Assembly (NCBI GenBank): GCA_900696625.1
Contig: CAADGU010000444.1
Location: 1-43,191 of the forward strand
From: an uncultured Chloroflexota bacterium
GTDB taxonomy: Bacteria; Chloroflexota; Anaerolineae; Promineifilales; Promineifilaceae
Direction of reading: 5' to 3'
Length of the DNA stretch: 43,191 bases
The translations under genes and the position numbers were made by a program. Shown in pieces: positions 8,784 to 41,744 of this stretch (the first letter of the stretch is position 1; each line of letters starts with the position of its first letter). The notes under the pieces are model-generated. The model searched no databases, was not told where the DNA came from, and worked only from the letters and a program-made list of their open reading frames with translations.

Positions 8784-8838
8784 GAGATTAGGAGACTAAG
8801 AGATTGGCAATCTCCTAATCTCCCAATCTCTTAATCTC
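8784..8838. repeat. Intergenic inverted repeat, GAGATTAG/GAGATTGG family
   Basis: The left arm has three tandem 8-nt units (GAGATTAG, GAGACTAA, GAGATTGG) and the right arm has the complementary units (CAATCTCC, TAATCTCC, CAATCTCT). It lies between the convergent GT-C-like and HdeD genes. The same family recurs at 18329-18392. It probably forms the 3' end hairpin of both transcripts. Confidence 0.8.
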
Positions 8839-15368: not shown

Positions 15369-15407
15369 AAGAGCCATCCACTGCGCCATGAGCCGTAGAT
15401 GGCTCTT
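15369..15407 (+). terminator. Terminator- or attenuator-like hairpin upstream of the ATP-grasp gene
   Basis: AAGAGCCATC (15369-15378) pairs with GATGGCTCTT (15398-15407), followed by AATATTTG. It lies 77 bp before the ATG at 15484 and could attenuate that gene or end an upstream transcript. The T-run is poor. Confidence 0.4.
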
Positions 15408-15483
15408 AATATTTGGGTTGAAAAGTTGCGGCTGGTGGCTGGTACCGGTCACTCGCCACTTTAGACAAGGAGACAGATTAACG

Positions 15484-16671
15484 ATGGATTACTACGAGAA
15501 TTTACAGATCAATGGACATCCCCCTCAACGTCGCTCGCGCAAACCCCCCTGGCGCATTGCCCTCACCGCCAACCTCAAAAGCCAGATGTATTGGCAGCCG
15601 GGGCAGCCGCCAGATGCCGGCGCTGAATTTGACGCCCGCGAAACGGTGGAGTCCATTGCCGCCGCGTTGGAAGCCGACGGCCATTTTGTCCACATTTGTA
15701 TGGCCGACCATACCTTACCCGAAACATTCATCAACTTACGCCCCCATTTTGTCTTTAACATCGCCGAAGGTATGGGCGGTGACGCCCGCGAAGCGCATGT
15801 GCCCGCCCTGTGCGAACTAATGGGCATTCCCTACACCGCTTCCCGTGTGTTGACCAATGCCCTGTCATTGGACAAAACGCAGACCAAGCGCATCTGGCAC
15901 AGCATGGGGCTGCCGACGGCACGTTTTCAGGAATTTACCAGCAGCGACCAGCCCATTGACCCGGCGCTGCCTTACCCGCTTTTTGTGAAGCCGGCCCGCG
16001 AAGGCACCGGCATGGGCATGGGGCCAGAATCCATCGTGACGAATGAGGCGGATTTGCGAACCCGGGTGGCCTGGGTTATTGAAACGTACCGGCAGCCGGC
16101 GCTGGTGGAAGAACTGCTAACCGGGCGCGAATTCACGGTAGGGTATATTGGTAATCGTGGCTTTCCGGGGGGGCGGACACGGCCGTACCTCTATAATTTT
16201 GAGGGCTACCATTTCTTCCCTGTGCTGGAAATTGACGCCAGCCGCAGCGTCACGCCTGGCGTCTACGGGCACGCCGCCAAATCGCTGGAACTGGATGAAC
16301 ATGGCGCGCCCGCTTACCTCTGCCCGGCCGATATTTCCGACGGCCTGCGCGAGCAGTTGTATTCCCTCACGCGGCAGGCGGCCGAGGCCATTGGCGCGTG
16401 TGATGTCTCCCGCATTGATTTCCGCCTGAACGCCGCCGGGCAGCCGATGCTGCTGGAAATCAACACGCTGCCAGGGCTGAACCCGGCAGTGAGTGATGTG
16501 TGCATTATGGCCCGCGCCGAGGGGATGCCTTATGAAACGCTCATCACTGAAATTTTATACCTGGCGGCCGAACGGTTTAATTTGCCGCGCCCGGTCATCC
16601 ATCAATTGGGGAGTATGGCCGTCGCCGAACCCGCCCTCCTGCTTCCACGCATCACTCCTTATTCTCGTTAG
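15484..16671 (+). CDS. ATP-grasp ligase, D-alanine-D-alanine ligase-like
   Basis: The product has 395 residues from the ATG at 15484 (AAGGAG 11 bp upstream; the frame extends 96 bp further but across a non-coding-looking stretch). Ddl-like features in order are NIAEGMGGDAREAHVPALCE with IPYTAS (substrate side), YPLFVKPAREGTGMGM (ATP-binding lysine and glycine-rich loop), VEELLTGREFTVG, and SRIDFRLNAAGQPMLLEINT with LPGLNP, the Mg-binding Glu/Asn region. It should form an ADP-producing amide bond between two amino-acid-like substrates. The sequence is clearly not a standard peptidoglycan Ddl, and the next gene is a lysine 2,3-aminomutase, so a beta-lysine-related substrate is an attractive inference. 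A perfect 25-bp-arm hairpin begins 4 bp after the stop. Confidence 0.85.
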   Translation: MDYYENLQINGHPPQRRSRKPPWRIALTANLKSQMYWQPGQPPDAGAEFDARETVESIAAALEADGHFVHICMADHTLPETFINLRPHFVFNIAEGMGGDAREAHVPALCELMGIPYTASRVLTNALSLDKTQTKRIWHSMGLPTARFQEFTSSDQPIDPALPYPLFVKPAREGTGMGMGPESIVTNEADLRTRVAWVIETYRQPALVEELLTGREFTVGYIGNRGFPGGRTRPYLYNFEGYHFFPVLEIDASRSVTPGVYGHAAKSLELDEHGAPAYLCPADISDGLREQLYSLTRQAAEAIGACDVSRIDFRLNAAGQPMLLEINTLPGLNPAVSDVCIMARAEGMPYETLITEILYLAAERFNLPRPVIHQLGSMAVAEPALLLPRITPYSR

Positions 16672-16674
16672 CTC

Positions 16675-16731
16675 CGTTTGTAGTAGGCGATTTATCGCCC
16701 TTCGTTGGCGATAAATCGCCTACTACAAACG
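16675..16731. repeat. Perfect inverted repeat with 25-bp arms
   Basis: Bases 16675-16699 and 16707-16731 are exact reverse complements with a 7-nt loop (CTTCGTT). Each arm itself contains GGCGATTTATCGCC. It lies immediately after the ATP-grasp stop and is followed by a pyrimidine-rich stretch. A single arm with 22 of 25 matching bases occurs alone at 41720-41744. Confidence 0.9.
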
Positions 16732-16898: not shown

Positions 16899-18317
16899 AT
16901 GAATGAATTAACCCCCACCATTCACACCCGCGCCCCATTCTGGCAAGACGTACCGGCCGAAAAATGGACCGATTGGCGCTGGCAAATGAGCCACCGCCTG
17001 AACAGCCTGGACGAACTGGCCCAGGTTGTCAATCTCACCGACAGCGAACGCCAGGCGTTGCAAACGAACAACTTGTTCCGGGTAGACATTACCCCCTACT
17101 TCGCCAGCCTGATGGACCCGGACGATATTCACTGCCCGGTGCGCAAACAGATCATCCCCACCAGCCGCGAAATTGTGCCCTTTGAGGCGATGATGGAAGA
17201 TTCATTGGCCGAGGATAAACATTCACCCGTGCCGGGTCTGGTGCATCGTTATCCGGATCGGGTGCTGATGTTGATTACCACGCAGTGCGCCAGCTACTGC
17301 CGCTACTGCACCCGCAGCCGCATTGTGGGCGACCCCGGCGAAACGTTTAGCCGCCAGGAGTTTGACGCCCAAATTGCCTATATTGAGCAGACGCCGCAAA
17401 TTCGGGATGTGCTGCTCTCTGGCGGCGACCCGCTGGTGCTGGCCCCCAAACAGCTAGACATGATCCTGGGGCGGCTGCGGGCGATTCCACACATTGAAAT
17501 TATCCGCATTGGTTCGCGTGTACCCGTTTTTCTACCGCAGCGGGTGACGGACGAGTTTTGTGAGATGCTGGCGAAGTATCATCCGCTGTGGATGAACATT
17601 CATGTGAACCATCCCAAAGAGATTACGCCAGAACTGGCGGCGGCATGTGACCGGCTCTCGCGGGCGGGTGTGCCGTTGGGCAACCAGAGTGTGCTGCTGG
17701 CGGGGGTGAATGATTCCGTCCATATCCAGCGGCAGTTGGTGCATGAGTTGGTGAAGATTCGGGTACGGCCGTATTACCTCTACCAGTGCGATCTGGTCAA
17801 AGGCGCCGGCCATTTTCGCACCAGCGTCAGCAAGGGCATTGAAATTATCGAAGGGCTGCGCGGCCACACCTCTGGGTATGCCGTGCCAACGTATGTGGTG
17901 GATGCGCCTGGCGGCGGCGGCAAGATTCCGGTGATGCCCAACTACATCATTTCTCAAGCGCCGGGTAAGGTGGTGCTGCGCAACTTTGAAGGCTTTATTA
18001 CCACCTATGCCGAGCCGCTGGATTATGACCCGCATGAGGTGGAGTTGCAGCAGTATGAAGTACGCCGCCGGCTGGAGCCGGGGCAGGAAGGTGTGCTTGG
18101 TTTGTTGGAAGGGCAGCGCATGACCATTGAACCGGAGGGGTTTGGCAGCACGCATGCGCGCGGCGGCGGCGAACACCGGCTGCGCAGCGGCGATCTGGCC
18201 GCCAAATGGCAGCCGTTGGGCGTGGGCGCCATGGAAGGTGAACAGGCCAAAACGCCCAAACAAGTGACTGCCAATATACCCGTTTCAGAAGTAGAGCCGG
18301 AAACGGCCGTGCCCTGA
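16899..18317 (+). CDS. kamA: Lysine 2,3-aminomutase (radical SAM, PLP)
   Basis: The protein has 472 residues. The radical SAM cluster is C130-x3-C134-x2-C137 (CASYCRYC). GGDPLVL follows. D298 (QCDLVKGAGHFRT) and D335 (VVDAPGGGGK) correspond to the two aspartates that hold the substrate's epsilon-amino group in the clostridial enzyme, and K342 of GGGGK is the PLP lysine. Keeping both aspartates favours L-lysine over glutamate as substrate, giving L-beta-lysine. The core is followed by an extra, low-complexity tail of about 60 residues. An AGGA site precedes the ATG. In osmolyte-making organisms kamA (ablA) pairs with the acetyltransferase ablB, but here the partner is a Ddl-like ligase upstream. 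The fate of beta-lysine is therefore open. Confidence 0.93.
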   Translation: MNELTPTIHTRAPFWQDVPAEKWTDWRWQMSHRLNSLDELAQVVNLTDSERQALQTNNLFRVDITPYFASLMDPDDIHCPVRKQIIPTSREIVPFEAMMEDSLAEDKHSPVPGLVHRYPDRVLMLITTQCASYCRYCTRSRIVGDPGETFSRQEFDAQIAYIEQTPQIRDVLLSGGDPLVLAPKQLDMILGRLRAIPHIEIIRIGSRVPVFLPQRVTDEFCEMLAKYHPLWMNIHVNHPKEITPELAAACDRLSRAGVPLGNQSVLLAGVNDSVHIQRQLVHELVKIRVRPYYLYQCDLVKGAGHFRTSVSKGIEIIEGLRGHTSGYAVPTYVVDAPGGGGKIPVMPNYIISQAPGKVVLRNFEGFITTYAEPLDYDPHEVELQQYEVRRRLEPGQEGVLGLLEGQRMTIEPEGFGSTHARGGGEHRLRSGDLAAKWQPLGVGAMEGEQAKTPKQVTANIPVSEVEPETAVP

Positions 18318-18328
18318 CAACAAGGCGG

Positions 18329-18392
18329 ATGAGATTGGGAGATTAGGAGATTGAGAGATTGTCAATCTCCAATCTCCCAATCTCCAATCTCC
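18329..18392. repeat. Intergenic inverted repeat, GAGATTGG family
   Basis: The left arm is GAGATTGG, GAGATTAG, GAGATTGA, GAGATTG in tandem (8-nt period). The right arm is CAATCTCC, AATCTCCC, AATCTCC. It is the same family as 8784-8838. It separates kamA from the histidine kinase gene and supplies the bases just before the kinase start. Confidence 0.85.
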
Positions 18393-23916: not shown

Positions 23917-25557
23917 ATGAAGCGAATAGTTAGTATGGCTGTATGGATGGTTTTATTAACGGCCGTCGTCAGCGTCGTCCCCACCAATTCTTCCCCAACC
24001 CGTTCAATTGTGGTGCAAGCCGCCACTGTGCATATTGCCGCAGAGGTGGCGCAGACATATGGCGGGCAGGTTCAGGCCGAACTGCCGATCATTAACGCCG
24101 TTTCCGTGAAGATACCCACCCACCTGGCTGCCAACCTGGCTAAAGACGGGCAGGTGGTGGCTGTCTATGAAGATGGGCAAGTGAATGTGGCCGGTAATGC
24201 CCCCGAGATGTACGCCCCAGAAGTGATGGGCGTCTCTGCTGTGTGGGATGCTGGTTATGATGGTGATGGTATTGGCGTGGCCGTGGTAGATACTGGCATT
24301 GCCACCATGAACTGGAATCGCGGACGGATTATGGCCCGTTACGATGCCCTGGACAATGGATCGCACAAACCAGACCCCCATGGCCACGGCACGATGATGG
24401 CCAGCCTGATTGGGAACGATCACACCGACTCGAATGGCACAATTGGCGTCGCCCCCGCCGTCAATTTGATTGATGTGCGCGTCCTGGATGAAGAGGGTAA
24501 AGGTGCTTACTCGGATATCCTGGAAGGGCTAAACTGGATTCTGCAAAACAAGGACGCTTACAACATTCGTGTTGTCAACCTCTCGCTGGTCGGTGGGATT
24601 GACAGCCCCTATTGGGCTGATCCCATTAATCAGGCGGTTGAGGCGCTTTGGGCGGCCGGGATTGTAGTCGTGGCGGCGGCCGGGAATGATGGCCCAGGCG
24701 CCATGAGTATTGCCGTGCCCGGCAATGATCCGTTTGTCATTACGGTCGGCGCGTATACAGATAACTTCACGCCAACGGATGAGGGCGACGATTACATTAC
24801 CCCATTTAGCGGCGCCGGCCCCACCGAGACGGGTTTTGTGAAACCAGACGTGGTTGCCCCTGGCGCGCATATGGTGGCCATGACCAAAGCCGGTACGACC
24901 TGGGCGCACAGCCACCGGGAGGCGCGTATCCGGGGTGAGTATTATCAGATTGCGGGCACATCATCGGCAACGGCCGTGACCTCCGGCGTGGTGGCGCTCA
25001 TGTTACAGGCCAACCCGGCGATGACCCCCAACCAGGTGAAATATGCCTTGATGGCCGCGGCCCGGCCGGCGGCTTATACAGATGGTAGCCTGGCCTGGAG
25101 TATTTTCCAGCAAGGGGCGGGGCGTGTGGATGCGGCAACGGCCGTACTCACTCCCCCGGCTGGCGAGGCCAATGCCAACATGACCCCCGGCCAACTATAC
25201 GTTGGCCCGGCAACCTTCCAGGATGGCGTTTTTGTCATCGTCGGTGAAGATGGGCAGCCCTTGTCTGACGCAGCCGGTTATTCGTGGACAGGTGGTTACT
25301 CCTGGACGGGCGGCTATTCGTGGACAGGCGGTTACTCCTGGACGGGTGGTTACTCCTGGACAGGTGGCTATTCCTGGACGGGCGGTACTGATTGGCAAGA
25401 ATGGCAAGACGGTGACGTGTGGCAAAGTGGCTATTCCTGGACGGGCGGTTACTCGTGGACGGGTGGCTATTCCTGGACGGGCGGTTATTCGTGGACAGGG
25501 GGCTACTCCTGGACAGGTGGTTATTCCTGGACGGGCCTGGCTGATTACAACAATTAA
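23917..25557 (+). CDS. Secreted subtilisin-like serine protease (S8) with C-terminal GYSWTG repeats
   Basis: The protein has 546 residues with a signal peptide (MVLLTAVVSVVPTNS region) and an inhibitor_I9-like propeptide (about 35-90). The S8 catalytic domain has D125 (VAVVDTGIA), H157 (HGHGTMMASL), the oxyanion Asn in AAAGNDGPG, and S349 (GTSSATAVTSGVVAL), so the protease should be active. After a linker the C-terminus consists of six GYSWTG hexapeptides, a 15-residue spacer GTDWQEWQDGDVWQS, six more GYSWTG, and LADYNN. Twelve tryptophans at a six-residue period suggest a regular beta structure or a surface- or glycan-binding tail. GGAGAG precedes the ATG. It is followed by an inverted repeat and an intrinsic terminator. 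Confidence 0.94.
   Translation: MKRIVSMAVWMVLLTAVVSVVPTNSSPTRSIVVQAATVHIAAEVAQTYGGQVQAELPIINAVSVKIPTHLAANLAKDGQVVAVYEDGQVNVAGNAPEMYAPEVMGVSAVWDAGYDGDGIGVAVVDTGIATMNWNRGRIMARYDALDNGSHKPDPHGHGTMMASLIGNDHTDSNGTIGVAPAVNLIDVRVLDEEGKGAYSDILEGLNWILQNKDAYNIRVVNLSLVGGIDSPYWADPINQAVEALWAAGIVVVAAAGNDGPGAMSIAVPGNDPFVITVGAYTDNFTPTDEGDDYITPFSGAGPTETGFVKPDVVAPGAHMVAMTKAGTTWAHSHREARIRGEYYQIAGTSSATAVTSGVVALMLQANPAMTPNQVKYALMAAARPAAYTDGSLAWSIFQQGAGRVDAATAVLTPPAGEANANMTPGQLYVGPATFQDGVFVIVGEDGQPLSDAAGYSWTGGYSWTGGYSWTGGYSWTGGYSWTGGYSWTGGTDWQEWQDGDVWQSGYSWTGGYSWTGGYSWTGGYSWTGGYSWTGGYSWTGLADYNN
25276..25536 (+). repeat. 18-bp coding repeat array (GYSWTG x6, spacer, x6)
   Basis: Units of GGYTAYTCSTGGACRGGY occupy 25276-25383 (six copies), then a 45-bp unique spacer (25384-25428), then six copies (25429-25536). 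Third positions vary (TAT/TAC, TCC/TCG, ACA/ACG), so the protein sequence is kept while the DNA has diverged, which points to selection on the hexapeptide. Confidence 0.97.
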
Positions 25558-25566
25558 CGTTGGGAG

Positions 25567-25616
25567 TGGCTGGTGGCTGGTGGCTAGTTGCTATACTAGC
25601 CACCAGTCACCAGCCC
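25567..25616. repeat. Intergenic inverted repeat, TGGTGGC family
   Basis: GGCTGGTGGCTGGTGGCTAG (left) pairs with CTAGCCACCAGTCACCAGCC (right) with one G-T pair and an 8-nt loop. The arms are 7-nt tandem units. It lies 10 bp after the protease stop. Confidence 0.85.
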
Positions 25617-27205: not shown

Positions 27206-27258
27206 GGTAATTGGGTAATTGAAGCCAATTACACAATTACTCAATTACTCAATTACCC
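27206..27258. repeat. Intergenic inverted repeat, TAATTGGG family
   Basis: GGTAATTGGGTAATTGAAG (left) faces CAATTACACAATTACTCAAT and TACTCAATTACCCC (right), built on an 8-nt period. It lies between the convergent kinase and DUF427 genes. It is the same family as 30549-30615 and 41123-41178. Confidence 0.85.
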
Positions 27259-27260
27259 CA

Positions 27261-27755
27261 TCACCACAACTCCGACCCTGCATCCCCCTTAAACGGGCCA
27301 ACCACATTGCTGGTGATCCAGCCGCCATAAAAGCCACCGGGTTGCGGCGTCACTTCTTCCTCATCTACCGTGCAAGAATCCATATACTGGGCATAAAAAG
27401 CGATATACATGCGAATGGGCGCAAACGCCGGTGTGGGTGAGGGGTAATACCAGGCGGCAATATCTACCACCCGGTCACCGACTATCACGCCATAATAATG
27501 TGCCTCCCCCTTCCACTCGCAAAACGAACGATTAAAGCGCGGGATCAGGTAATCCATTTGTACATCCTCAGGCGGGATGTAATAGACGGGGGGGTGGCTG
27601 GTTTCCAGCACTCGTTTGGCCCGGCGGGTATCGGCAATGATGACGCCGTTCAATTTTACTTGAATGTGTTTTGAGCAATCTTCCAGGCGTGGTGGGCGGG
27701 GGTAATCCCATACCGATTCCTGGCCTGGGCCTGGTTCAATTCGTTTTAGCCGCAT
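27261..27755 (-). CDS. DUF427 (NTP_transf_9) family protein
   Basis: The product has 164 residues from the ATG at 27755 (AAAGGAG 9 bp upstream). Characteristic blocks are ESVWDYPRPPRLE near the start, NGVIIADTRRAKRVLETSHP, PVYYIPPEDV and SFCEWKGEAHYYGV, with AAWYYPSP later. This matches DUF427, small cytoplasmic proteins of unknown activity; the Pfam name NTP_transf_9 does not establish a reaction. It lies 31 bp downstream of the LysR regulator on the same strand and probably shares its transcript. Confidence 0.88.
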   Translation of the reverse strand: MRLKRIEPGPGQESVWDYPRPPRLEDCSKHIQVKLNGVIIADTRRAKRVLETSHPPVYYIPPEDVQMDYLIPRFNRSFCEWKGEAHYYGVIVGDRVVDIAAWYYPSPTPAFAPIRMYIAFYAQYMDSCTVDEEEVTPQPGGFYGGWITSNVVGPFKGDAGSELW

Positions 27756-28884: not shown

Positions 28885-29304
28885 ATGAGCAAGCGGGTTT
28901 TGTATGTGGAAGATCATGCCAACAACAGGTTATTGGTTCAGCGGATTGTGCAGGCCGAAGGGCTGGAATTTTTAGCGGCGGCAGATGCCGAAACGGGCTG
29001 GCACACGGCCGTTACTCACCAACCAGACCTCATCTTCATGGATTTGCACCTGCCCGGCGGTCTCACCGGCTTTGACCTCACCCGCCAACTGCGACAGCAC
29101 CCCGCCTTTGCCCATACCCCCATCATCGCCCTCACCGCCTTTGGCAACGATGAAGCCGAACAGGCGGCTCTGGCCGCAGGCTGCAATGATTTCCTGCGCA
29201 AACCGGCCGACATTCGCCAGATTCGCGCCATCCTGCGCCAATACCTGGGCGAACCAGCCCAAACTGCCCAACCCGGCACGGCCGTACCCGTTGCTTATCT
29301 CTAA
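28885..29304 (+). CDS. Single-domain response regulator (CheY-like)
   Basis: The protein has 139 residues: one receiver domain with VLYVEDHANNR (acidic pocket), phospho-acceptor D53 (FMDLHLPGGLTG), ALTAFG and DFLRKPADI. There is no output domain, so it signals by protein contact or within a phosphorelay. GGAGG precedes the ATG. The receiver resembles those of hybrid-kinase systems (VEDxxxNRxLV). The multi-spanning kinase at 25729 is the nearest kinase and a possible but unproven partner. Confidence 0.93.
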   Translation: MSKRVLYVEDHANNRLLVQRIVQAEGLEFLAAADAETGWHTAVTHQPDLIFMDLHLPGGLTGFDLTRQLRQHPAFAHTPIIALTAFGNDEAEQAALAAGCNDFLRKPADIRQIRAILRQYLGEPAQTAQPGTAVPVAYL

Positions 29305-29306
29305 AA

Positions 29307-29376
29307 TTAGGAATTATGAATTAGGAATTATGAAGCAAGAGAGCCAGATTCATAATTCATCCTTCATAATTCCTAA
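29307..29376. repeat. Intergenic inverted repeat, AATTATGA family
   Basis: The 28-bp left arm (29307-29334) and right arm (29349-29376) pair with four mismatches. Units are AGGAATTATGAATT-like. It lies between the response regulator stop and the thrC ATG (29382), so the hairpin occupies the place of a ribosome-binding site. The same family recurs at 35430-35497. Confidence 0.85.
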
Positions 29377-35429: not shown

Positions 35430-35497
35430 TAATTATGAATTATGAATTATGAATTATGAAGGGTGTTTCATAATTCATAATTCATAATTCCTAATTT
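35430..35497. repeat. Intergenic inverted repeat, AATTATGA family, 23-bp perfect arms
   Basis: AATTATGA units in tandem (35438-35460) pair exactly with TTCATAATTCATAATTCATA plus ATT (35467-35489), loop GGGTGT. It fills the whole mreB-mreC gap. It is the same family as 29307-29376. Confidence 0.92.
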
Positions 35498-37240: not shown

Positions 37241-37774
37241 ATGCGTTTAAGTGGTAGAAAAATTGCCATTCTTTTAGCGGAGGGGGTGGAGGATTTGGAG
37301 TTTTATGTGCCGTTGATGCGGCTAGAGGAGGAGGGCGCCGAGGTGATTGCCGCCGGACTGGATATGAAACCGGTACGGGGCAAGAATGGGCTGGAAATAA
37401 CACCCACCACGCGTATTGAGACGTTGAATGCCCAGGAGTTGTTTGCGGTGGTGATACCAGGTGGTTGGGCGCCGGATAAATTGCGCCGGTACACGGCCGT
37501 GACCCAACTCATCCACGACATGAACGCGGCCGGTAAGGTCATTGGCGTCATTTGCCATGGCGGGTTGGTGGCCATTTCGGCGGGGATTGTGAACGGCCGT
37601 CCCGCCACAGGCTCTTTAGGCATTAAAGACGATCTGGTCAATGCCGGCGCCAACTGGGTAGACGACGCCGCCTTCCGCGACGGCAACCTGGTCTGGGGGC
37701 GCGTCGTCGCCGACATCCCTGCCTTTTGCCGTGAACTGGTAGCTGCTCTGGTGGAAGCAGCCGGTAATCGGTAA
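37241..37774 (+). CDS. DJ-1/PfpI family protein
   Basis: This 177-residue single-domain class I glutamine amidotransferase-like fold has ILLAEGVEDLEFYVPL (conserved acidic residue near the start), VVIPGGWAPDKLRR and the nucleophile elbow GVICHGGLVA with C105. PfpI/YhbO-type members are reported as intracellular proteases or glyoxalase/deglycases active on methylglyoxal adducts; the precise activity cannot be told from sequence. AAGGAG precedes the ATG. The stop lies inside an inverted repeat. Confidence 0.92.
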   Translation: MRLSGRKIAILLAEGVEDLEFYVPLMRLEEEGAEVIAAGLDMKPVRGKNGLEITPTTRIETLNAQELFAVVIPGGWAPDKLRRYTAVTQLIHDMNAAGKVIGVICHGGLVAISAGIVNGRPATGSLGIKDDLVNAGANWVDDAAFRDGNLVWGRVVADIPAFCRELVAALVEAAGNR

Positions 37775-37806
37775 TCCGTAATCGGATGACGGTTTACGGT
37801 TTACGT
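37761..37806. repeat. Intergenic inverted repeat, CGGTAATC family (degenerate)
   Basis: CGGTAATCGGTAATCCGTAA (left) faces GACGGTTTACGGTTTACG (right) imperfectly. It lies between the convergent PfpI and sugar-transferase genes and includes the PfpI stop. Confidence 0.7.
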
Positions 37807-40521: not shown

Positions 40522-41118
40522 ATGAATTATTTAACCACTTACCGGAAAATGGCCTGGGGTGGCTTTCTGGTACTCGCTTTTTTCTTAGTGGGCTGCGTGA
40601 AGCCGGTTCCCACCGATGAACTTCCCCCCACCAGCACCCCTGCCCCCACCATCAGCTTCCCGGAAGTTCTGCCTACTGCCCCACAACCCACCGTTGATCC
40701 CCTCCAGCCAACGCCTGAATCGGAAACCCCGCCGGTTGTAGAGGAGGCAACGGCCGTGCCCGCACCACCCCCCACCACTGGCGAGCAGACGGTGCATGTA
40801 GTAGCCCCCGGTGATACGCTGTTCAGCATTAGTCAGCGTTATGGCGTGCCCATGGACCAAATTATGGCCGCCAACGGCATCACCGATCCCAACAATCTGG
40901 CGGTGGGCACACAACTTGTCATTCCCGCGCCCGGTTCCGTAGCGCCGCCACCCGCCACCGGCACAGAACAGGTATATACCGTCAAGGCTGGCGACAACCT
41001 GTTCCGCATTGGCCTGAATTATGGCTGCACTGTAGACCAGCTATCAGCCTATAACAACATTCCCTACCCCTACACCATTTTCGTCGGCGACCAGATTCGC
41101 ATCCCGCCTGATTGTTAA
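40522..41118 (+). CDS. Lipoprotein with two LysM domains
   Basis: The protein has 198 residues. The lipobox is FFLVGC (Cys about residue 25), after a hydrophobic signal; a Pro/Thr-rich spacer (about 27-88) suits passage through the wall. There are two LysM domains: HVVAPGDTLFSISQRYGVPM to LVIP (about 92-136) and YTVKAGDNLFRIGLNYGCTV to IRIP (about 152-196). It should sit on the outer face of the membrane and bind peptidoglycan or chitin-like glycans. No enzymatic domain is present. AGGAG precedes the ATG and the gene has its own promoter. Confidence 0.93.
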   Translation: MNYLTTYRKMAWGGFLVLAFFLVGCVKPVPTDELPPTSTPAPTISFPEVLPTAPQPTVDPLQPTPESETPPVVEEATAVPAPPPTTGEQTVHVVAPGDTLFSISQRYGVPMDQIMAANGITDPNNLAVGTQLVIPAPGSVAPPPATGTEQVYTVKAGDNLFRIGLNYGCTVDQLSAYNNIPYPYTIFVGDQIRIPPDC

Positions 41119-41122
41119 AGAG

Positions 41123-41178
41123 GTAATTGAGTAATTGAGTAATTGTGTAATTACCCAATTACTCAATTACTCAATTAC
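41123..41178. repeat. Intergenic inverted repeat, TAATTGAG family, 23-bp perfect arms
   Basis: GTAATTGAGTAATTGAGTAA plus TTG (41123-41145) pairs exactly with 41156-41178. It lies between the LysM lipoprotein stop and the NUDIX start (41183), occupying the ribosome-site position. Confidence 0.92.
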
Positions 41179-41182
41179 TCTC

Positions 41183-41728
41183 ATGCTCCCCCCTTCTTCC
41201 CACATCGTCTGGCAAGGCGACTCCTGGTATTTGCGGGAGGATACGCGGCTGCTGCCGGATGGCACGGCCGTCACCCGCGGCGTAGTGGTGCATCCGGGGT
41301 CGGTGGTGCTGGTTCCGTTACGGCCGTCACCCGCCGGCCCGGAAATCCTCATGCTGCGCCAATACCGGCAGACGCTGGGCCAGACTATTCTGGAACTGCC
41401 CGCGGGTACGCGCCATTGGCATGAAGCCTGGCTGGATTGCGCCCAACGGGAACTGCGCGAGGAAACGGGCTATCGCGCTGAACAATTCCTCAGCCTGGGT
41501 GAAATCTGGCCCGCCCCCGGCCTGACGGACGAAGTGATGCACATTGTCCTGGCGCAAGGGCTGACACCCGACCCCCTACCCGGTGATGCGGACGAAATGA
41601 TAGAAGTGATGCCCATGCCCCTGGCAGAACTGGTGCCGATGGCGCAAGACGGCCGTTTGCAAGACGGTAAAAGTGTGGTGGCGGTGTGGCGCACGGCCGT
41701 GTATCTGCAAAACCGTTTCCGTTCGTAG
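41183..41728 (+). CDS. NUDIX hydrolase, ADP-ribose pyrophosphatase-like
   Basis: The product has 181 residues from the ATG at 41183; an in-frame ATG at 41135 would translate the inverted repeat and is rejected. The NUDIX box GTRHWHEAWLDCAQRELREE TGY fits GX5EX7REUXEEXGU, with ILELPAG before it as in ADP-ribose pyrophosphatases (NudF/YjhB group), and IWPAPGLTDEVMHIVLA after it. It probably hydrolyses ADP-ribose or a related nucleotide sugar. No Shine-Dalgarno: the ATG follows 4 bp after the hairpin arm. The stop overlaps a solitary half of the 16675-16731 repeat. Confidence 0.9.
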   Translation: MLPPSSHIVWQGDSWYLREDTRLLPDGTAVTRGVVVHPGSVVLVPLRPSPAGPEILMLRQYRQTLGQTILELPAGTRHWHEAWLDCAQRELREETGYRAEQFLSLGEIWPAPGLTDEVMHIVLAQGLTPDPLPGDADEMIEVMPMPLAELVPMAQDGRLQDGKSVVAVWRTAVYLQNRFRS

Positions 41729-41744
41729 TGGGCGATTCATCGCC
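41720..41744. repeat. Solitary arm of the 25-bp hairpin element
   Basis: This matches the left arm at 16675-16699 in 22 of 25 positions, without a facing arm. As at the first locus, it sits at a gene end, overlapping the NUDIX stop codon (41726-41728). Confidence 0.8.

Follow-up and report, generated by a model that had tools for sequence, protein, structure and literature searches.

Background

REPs and REPINs are repeats found widely among bacteria, and sequence change in them is usually read as the result of transposition and selection. The element described here comes from the Chloroflexi, the group to which T. roseum also belongs. In plastid DNA, minute hairpin-loop inversions are known, in which a short loop lying between inverted arms flips between related genomes.

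REPINs are REP doublets that form hairpins (Bertels and Rainey 2011, PMC3116915). A legend of that paper names both hairpin and clover folds and, in the passages concerned, the way in which symmetric REPINs are re-established is a key issue for its authors. GTAG REPs, as presented in the corresponding sections of Di Nocera et al. (2013, PMC3733652), carry short TY loops, fall into sub-families with alternative stem residues and occur as homodimers and heterodimers; Chloroflexi are named there among their carriers and T. roseum is mentioned. For template switching at inverted repeats, the relevant part of another study names two products, homogenisation of the arms and inversion of the spacer, and reports that in 9 of 10 yeast genes the inversion arose within an already perfect repeat (Abraham and Hazkani-Covo 2021, PMC8604942). 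The creation and repair of stems by template switching are argued for in sections of a further paper (Monttinen and Loytynoja 2022, PMC8794818).

Results

A GTAG-type REP dimer downstream of a ligase-like gene

The window (the whole stretch of 43,191 nucleotides analysed here) carries an intergenic element of 57 bp in which 16707-16731 is the exact reverse complement of 16675-16699, with a 7-nt spacer between these two arms, as the preliminary description had claimed. The features of the site are as follows.

16675-16731, no strand assigned: REP dimer (homodimer, REPIN form) with perfect inverted 25-bp arms and a 7-nt spacer
16680-16699, + strand: left REP unit GTAGTAGGCGATTTATCGCC, with a GTAG tag, a 6-bp stem GGCGAT/ATCGCC and the loop TT
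16700-16706, + strand: 7-nt spacer CTTCGTT, in the same orientation in the sister species G001; the spacer inverts between species at other homodimer sites
16707-16726, - strand: right REP unit; the relatives G003, G002 and G004 have a different, GCT-like inner sequence in its orthologue, so that the match to the left arm is read as derived
15388-16671, + strand: upstream neighbour, an ORF with a domain match to a D-Ala-D-Ala ligase C-terminal domain protein
16899-18317, + strand: downstream neighbour, a lysine 2,3-aminomutase-like radical SAM protein, used as the anchor for finding the orthologous site

The hairpin starts 3 nt past the stop codon (16669-16671) of the upstream ORF. At up to 3 mismatches the window contains three arm matches only, namely both hairpin arms and 41720-41744, and 100 dinucleotide-preserving shuffles of the window contain 0. 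The homodimer folds into a single long hairpin (DNA fold, -30.2 kcal/mol, z -12.25). A fold also forms from the left arm by itself (DNA, -4.9 kcal/mol, z -5.33). The hairpin is real and a chance match is excluded. An Rfam scan of the window gave 0 matches at the gathering threshold. The GTAG tag beside a short palindromic stem-loop, the 2-nt loop and the high copy number are those of GTAG-type REPs, while two inverted REPs, a short spacer and a hairpin fold are those of REPINs. The element is a GTAG-type REP dimer (REPIN) in form.

Other repeated sequences are found in the window. The octamer palindrome ACGGCCGT occurs at 87 places in 43 kb (for example 16179-16186), with 1.0 expected from dinucleotide shuffles, an abundance resembling that of a highly iterated palindrome. 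Further repeats or hairpins lie at 8784-8830, 18331-18370, 27227-27276, 29304-29376, 35431-35497, 37762-37805 and 41113-41190. Their arms are made of tandem 7-8-nt units (AATTACTC, AATTATG, GAGATTG, GTAATCG), and several of these motifs are found again in relatives. At 25240-25582, 18-bp tandem repeats encode GYSWTG units at the C-terminal end of ORF 23917-25557.

Copy number and unit types

Searching the window's own genome (6.95 Mb in 641 contigs) with the arm core GTAGTRGGCGATTYATCGCC at up to 3 mismatches, as the preliminary description had proposed, returned 123 + 124 matches on the two strands, against 1 + 2 for a reversed-pattern control. That description had allowed for the likeness of the arms to be a coincidence if the genome held no further copies; 247 matches against 3, spread over many contigs, dispose of this and define a high-copy, dispersed repeat. 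A fixed 47-base pattern covering whole two-armed elements gave 112 + 114 rows (control, 7 + 9), many elements appearing on both strands, which amounts to about a hundred elements.

Each arm consists of GTAG, then TA, then the small palindrome GGCGAT-TT-ATCGCC. Units were compared at 286 sites of five genomes (81 in the own genome, 70 in G001, 46 in G003, 46 in G004 and 43 in G002), which come from selected loci and not from whole genomes. The set omits duplicates, elements less than 60 nt from a stretch end, and loci L038 and L039. The spacer between the facing arms measures 7 nt at 272 of the 286 sites. Sites were located by their outer ends, so that the conservation of these ends is partly built in. 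Over the 572 arms the inner stem is chiefly GAT/ATC, ACT/AGT, AAT/ATT or GCT/AGC. Its two sides change jointly, including double changes from G-C to A-T and from A-T to C-G. At each of the six positions of the stem, 555 to 559 of these arms have a Watson-Crick pair, the outer three pairs being partly fixed by the site-finding procedure. The ACT-GAT heterodimer of locus L068 folds as DNA into an outer stem with two small hairpins and as RNA into one interrupted stem; for the G003 version of the window site, the DNA fold and the RNA fold are each a long hairpin with interruptions.

Within the window, the hairpin is intergenic and the lone arm lies at a gene end. Crude ORF calls at 284 sites placed 49 in long ORFs of doubtful reality and left 55 unassigned, and the repeat itself supplies stop codons. 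The 2-nt loop within a single arm is sometimes reversed (GATAAATC in 3 and GATGAATC in 1 of the 572 arms; L097, L179, L177 and others), which looks as though the 6-bp stem also flips, rarely.

Distribution and search for a linked transposase

Among 59 genomes including the own one, the arm core (up to 2 mismatches) is abundant only in G000 to G004, which belong to one genus and have 161 to 228 matches each (in order 116+112, 112+112, 114+100, 81+84 and 77+84). The sixth genus member, G005, gave 0+0, and the remaining 53 genomes have at most 6 matches in any of them. Among the species that carry the family, many of its sites recur at orthologous positions. When one genome per species (84,980 species) was scanned, exact GAT-GAT homodimers spaced by 7 nt were found in 79 stretches. 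All come from four MAGs (CFX8, ACE_CHL11, CHL1 and BJ8), whose titles read Chloroflexi or Anaerolineae bacterium, in a set that may omit the window's own genome.

None of the 47 Y1_Tnp (PF01797) loci examined carries the full arm as a linked RAYT locus would; the set takes in every one of the 22 matches in the genus, together with 25 of 112 listed for the rest of the taxonomic family. The own genome has 2 Y1_Tnp (PF01797) matches, one of which, L031, adjoins GGAG-tagged palindromes of another sequence. In L031 (gene 1399-1935), L051, L057 and L058 the Y1_Tnp genes lie near their own GGAG- or GTAG-tagged palindromes, each unlike the family studied here. Three further candidates were rejected: L394 and L403 show weak arm-like matches with the palindrome missing, and L059 has a bare 9-mer, GTAGTAGGC, about 900 bp from its Y1_Tnp gene. 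It is possible that the cognate RAYT has been lost or is unassembled, as the genomes are incomplete. We are apparently dealing with a new genus-restricted REP/REPIN family that lacks its RAYT, of a kind of element already known.

Two related observations concern single loci. The protein encoded by L032 (1429-2607, - strand) is 392 aa long; towards its C-terminus it is Y1_Tnp-like (Pfam 291-368), and the ~290 N-terminal residues have no Pfam match at 0.001. Frames of 391-393 aa with such a match are found in five of the six genus genomes, and proteins of this type are possibly a domesticated transposase domain. L033, from the class relative G050 of another genus, holds two copies of a related element 93 bp apart, in which GTAGTGGGCGATTTATCGCC or a one-base variant faces an unlike partner arm.

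The solitary unit

41720-41744, + strand: solitary REP unit GTAGTGGGCGATTCATCGCC with CGTTC in front, present in G001 and absent from G003 and G004

The resemblance of this unit to one hairpin arm in 22 of 25 bases is as first described. The statement that both elements start near a stop codon holds for the hairpin; the lone arm instead contains one, the TAG stop of the upstream NUDIX ORF (41726-41728) lying within its GTAG, so that the unit supplies the stop codon of the NUDIX gene. The arm is common to the own genome and the sister species, single in both, and has been single since before these two split. In G003 and G004 the alignment gap covers at least 37 columns, corresponding to the arm and about 12 bases; the surroundings are different in G002 and G005. 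No relative examined has a paired arm at this place. On these alignments, the 41720 arm is most simply seen as a separate single-unit insertion, neither the precursor nor the remnant of a pair.

The preliminary description offered two readings of the lone arm, decay of a pair or the building of full hairpins from single arms by templated inversion. The second finds no counterpart here: the arm is single in the own genome and in G001 and missing from the place in G003 and G004, and the 16675 site is already two-armed in all five family-carrying species of the genus. Several other apparently lone arms have a diverged or different partner. The 41720 arm shows no mark of a pair remnant.

The window site in related species

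Five species carry the element in the orthologous position ahead of the aminomutase gene. In the own genome the left arm is GATTTATC, the right arm is its copy and the spacer is CTTCGTT. G001 has the same right arm and spacer; one base of its left loop is changed, leaving it one base short of a perfect palindrome. The three other species (G003, G002 and G004) have a GAT-type left arm and a different, GCT-like right arm. The inner right arm of the own genome is 3 to 6 bases away from these three relatives and 0 away from its own left arm. A two-gene tree gives ((((own,G001),G003),G004),G002,G005) with moderate support (71-89), while flank identities put G003 nearer G004 (90.5) than the own genome (88.6). 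With either grouping the unlike pair is still ancestral at this site. Because of the different right arm in G003, G002 and G004, and of the gene tree, the right arm is read as a derived copy of the left one. By parsimony, the palindrome is read as having arisen from unlike arms before the split of the own genome and G001.

Similar copying is seen elsewhere at L011/L162: in G001 one arm has an outer half that duplicates its partner. Such clusters of changes, turning an arm into a duplicate of the one it faces, were seen at few sites (the window site and the half-arm of L162). The loop bases of GAT-GAT pairs agree beyond expectation (C/C 9 against 2.9, sites of several species being counted apart).

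In G005 the window site carries an unrelated hairpin, CCTGACAGGTCT...AGACCTGTCAGG. Slots in which an unrelated hairpin replaces the family are also found at other loci, for example L301 (G003), L240 (G003) and L065 (G005), which points to selection favouring a hairpin at these places or to a common target.

Spacer inversion between orthologous elements

From 200 stretches together with further loci, sites with both flanks orthologous gave 187 pairs in 72 groups. Dimers were called homodimers when their arms match at 2 or fewer mismatches. Removal of 8 pairs with a spacer other than 7 nt left 179 for the count of flips.

Homodimers: 140 pairs, 43 flip, 61 same, 36 not callable; groups, 25 flip, 19 same, 6 not callable
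Heterodimers: 25 pairs, 0 flip, 18 same, 7 not callable; groups, 0 flip, 14 same, 2 not callable
Mixed: 14 pairs, 0 flip, 5 same, 9 not callable; groups, 1 flip, 5 same, 0 not callable

A flipped spacer is thus present in 25 of the 44 resolved homodimer groups and in 0 of the 14 heterodimer groups (Fisher p 9.8e-5). Restricted to the own genome and G001, the figures are 7/22 and 0/7, a difference that is not significant (p 0.15). The flip criterion is loose, since it fires on 17% of an all-pairs control of own against G001 spacers, and exact inverses are therefore the better measure. They were found in 23 of the 140 homodimer pairs against 60 of 2208 (2.7%) in the all-pairs control, in which the orthologous pairs are also counted; sites recur among the 140 pairs, and this lack of independence makes the binomial p of 6e-12 too low. 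With one pair per site, own and G001 alone give 5/25 exact flips (p 5e-4). Exact inverses occur in 18 groups (17 homodimer and 1 mixed) and in 0 of the 16 heterodimer groups. The mixed group is L083, in which the flipped pair are homodimers. The exact inverse at L090 is equally explained by a single substitution and was scored not callable in the count of flips.

Along ~646,000 aligned columns, with overlaps counted repeatedly, 38 inverted blocks were found, 29 in the family and 9 elsewhere. Blocks reversed but not complemented, taken as a control, numbered 11, so that the 9 outside the family are not in excess. One of the latter, a 16-nt inversion between 5-bp arms (L246), looks real. The 40 rows of other hairpins make a poor control: several are family copies with a mutated or truncated tag, the rest are mostly gapped or unlike, and the single flip called among them lies in a tandem hairpin that aligned badly. 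Among the family's dimers examined, spacer inversion was seen only where the arms match. Templated inversion, as put forward in the preliminary description, therefore survives inside existing two-armed elements and not as a way of building pairs out of single arms: spacers invert at matching-arm sites, none was seen to do so at differing-arm sites, and at the window hairpin the right arm appears to have been turned into a copy of the left one.

Discussion

Probable template switching within the dimer

We consider it probable that these elements are REPIN-form dimers in which template switching at the replication fork flips the spacers and homogenises the arms, the lone arm being a separate insertion. 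The fork would be the agent of both arm copying and spacer inversion. A nascent strand would switch template within one arm, use either the complementary or the nascent strand as template for the spacer or for the opposite arm, and then switch back. Two switches in matching arms would leave the 7-nt spacer inverted, and a fold-back switch would copy one arm onto the other, by which a heterodimer would become a palindrome. Differing arms could not re-pair beside the spacer and no flip would follow. The contrast between matching and unlike arms indeed implies that arm pairing beside the spacer is needed. Breakpoints would often fall inside the arms, as implied by the outer asymmetry, which is unswapped in 10 of the 15 informative flipped pairs, and by the arm difference at L080, which is unswapped despite the flip. 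Inversion of the whole element could account for a minority of flips. The original dispersal presumably took place through an IS200-like RAYT that is now unlinked from the family.

A wider proposal is made tentatively and given less than even weight: replication template switching within the element, and not transposition, may maintain and renew REPIN symmetry. An orphan family without a RAYT might then keep near-perfect palindromes at old sites, its arms templating each other. Heterodimers, too, might become homodimers in place.

Alternative explanations

The hairpins may be terminators or stabilisers of mRNA 3' ends, kept by selection and turning over with no special mechanism. We regard this as rather unlikely to be the whole explanation, although it agrees with the position of the window copy 3 nt past a stop codon and with the slow change of stems (4/612 between the own genome and G001) set against a flank identity of 93.3%. 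It also agrees with 10 of the 18 rows, among 394 overlapping orthologous-place rows, in which the family is missing and another hairpin of at least 9 bp is present; the other 8 have neither, at loci mostly chosen for the family. However, selection for a hairpin would not by itself reverse-complement a 7-nt loop, nor does it explain the restriction to matching arms. Both could hold at once, with template switching supplying the mutations.

Ectopic gene conversion or re-insertion, by which another copy of the family overwrites the element in either orientation, seems improbable. The recurrence of common spacers (GTCAAAA at 25 and GTCAGAA at 18 of 169 GAT-GAT sites) and the 36 of 140 homodimer pairs that are not callable leave some room for it. 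A donor would nevertheless be expected to share the spacer, and in six exact-inverse groups the spacer is unique among the homodimers of the examined set, which is smaller than the whole genomes.

The named relatives are all MAGs, in which short-k assembly might give the wrong orientation to a loop flanked by identical arms. If short-k graphs failed to orient such loops, the direction of the spacer in MAGs would be partly random and flips would be restricted to matching arms, as observed; between the more distant genomes their frequency does approach one half (31 flip and 48 same among resolved pairs, heterodimers included). We nevertheless give an artefact of this sort little credence. The arms measure 20-27 bp, below the final k of common assemblers. 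L003 and L080, the only such sites, are flipped with at most 6 bp of contiguous arm identity in both genomes, too little for such an error to arise, and at L080 the own spacer agrees with that of G001 while G003 agrees with G004. At the window site, moreover, arm copying alters bases and not orientation alone.

Excision and re-insertion, or inversion, of whole elements by a transposase or site-specific recombinase acting at the outer GTTYGTAGTA ends is very improbable: REPINs are indeed held to be mobilised by RAYTs (in the passages seen of PMC3116915) and 5 of the 15 flipped pairs that are informative show the outer-end asymmetry exchanged (unflipped pairs, 3 of 21), but it stays in place in the majority, as does the arm difference at L080, heterodimers with identical outer ends flip in 0 of 14 resolved groups, the spacers of ACT-GAT heterodimers mostly keep their direction relative to the arms (41 of 57, with 7 reversed and 9 tied, sites of several species being counted apart), and 0 of the 47 Y1_Tnp loci examined carry the repeat.

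Significance

If loops flip and arms are copied in place, compensatory changes in a hairpin are by themselves no evidence of structural selection, and symmetry need not imply recent mobility. The family offers dozens of parallel sites and, in the unlike-arm dimers, a built-in control, and the rate and requirements of bacterial template switching could be read from genomes through it. Should the proposal on symmetry be true, it would answer how symmetric REPINs are re-established, and REPIN loops would provide a natural record of strands switching at the replication fork.

Comparison with known systems

The mutational process is known from yeast, from RNA genes and from plastid hairpins. The turnover of REPINs by this process was not found in the literature searched, and neither was any paper joining REP or REPIN elements with template switching or spacer inversion. 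As in the plastid hairpin-loop inversions, a loop between inverted arms flips; the plastid cases are single loci, whereas here a repeat family is concerned.

The family shares with the REPINs, as described in the relevant passages of PMC3116915, two inverted REPs around a spacer that is less conserved, a high copy number, folding as a hairpin or clover, and the presence of solitary units. It departs from that account in three respects: no RAYT carries the repeat among the 47 Y1_Tnp loci, the arms change stem type (GAT, ACT, AAT and GCT), and the spacers invert between species, which those passages do not mention. With the GTAG REP superfamily, in the parts of PMC3733652 concerned, it shares the GTAG tag, the short stem, the 2-nt TY loop and dimers of like and unlike stems. 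That superfamily comprises 24 families, beside which ours is set by description and not by consensus sequences (PMC3733652, same parts); the spacer inversion seen here is not described in them. Finally, the inversion of a spacer with its arms intact and the making of one arm into a copy of the other are like the products of template switching in the part of PMC8604942 that deals with them. The cases set out in the corresponding sections of PMC8604942 and PMC8794818 are yeast coding genes and RNA genes, whereas the present ones come from many parallel sites of one repeat family dispersed in bacterial genomes.
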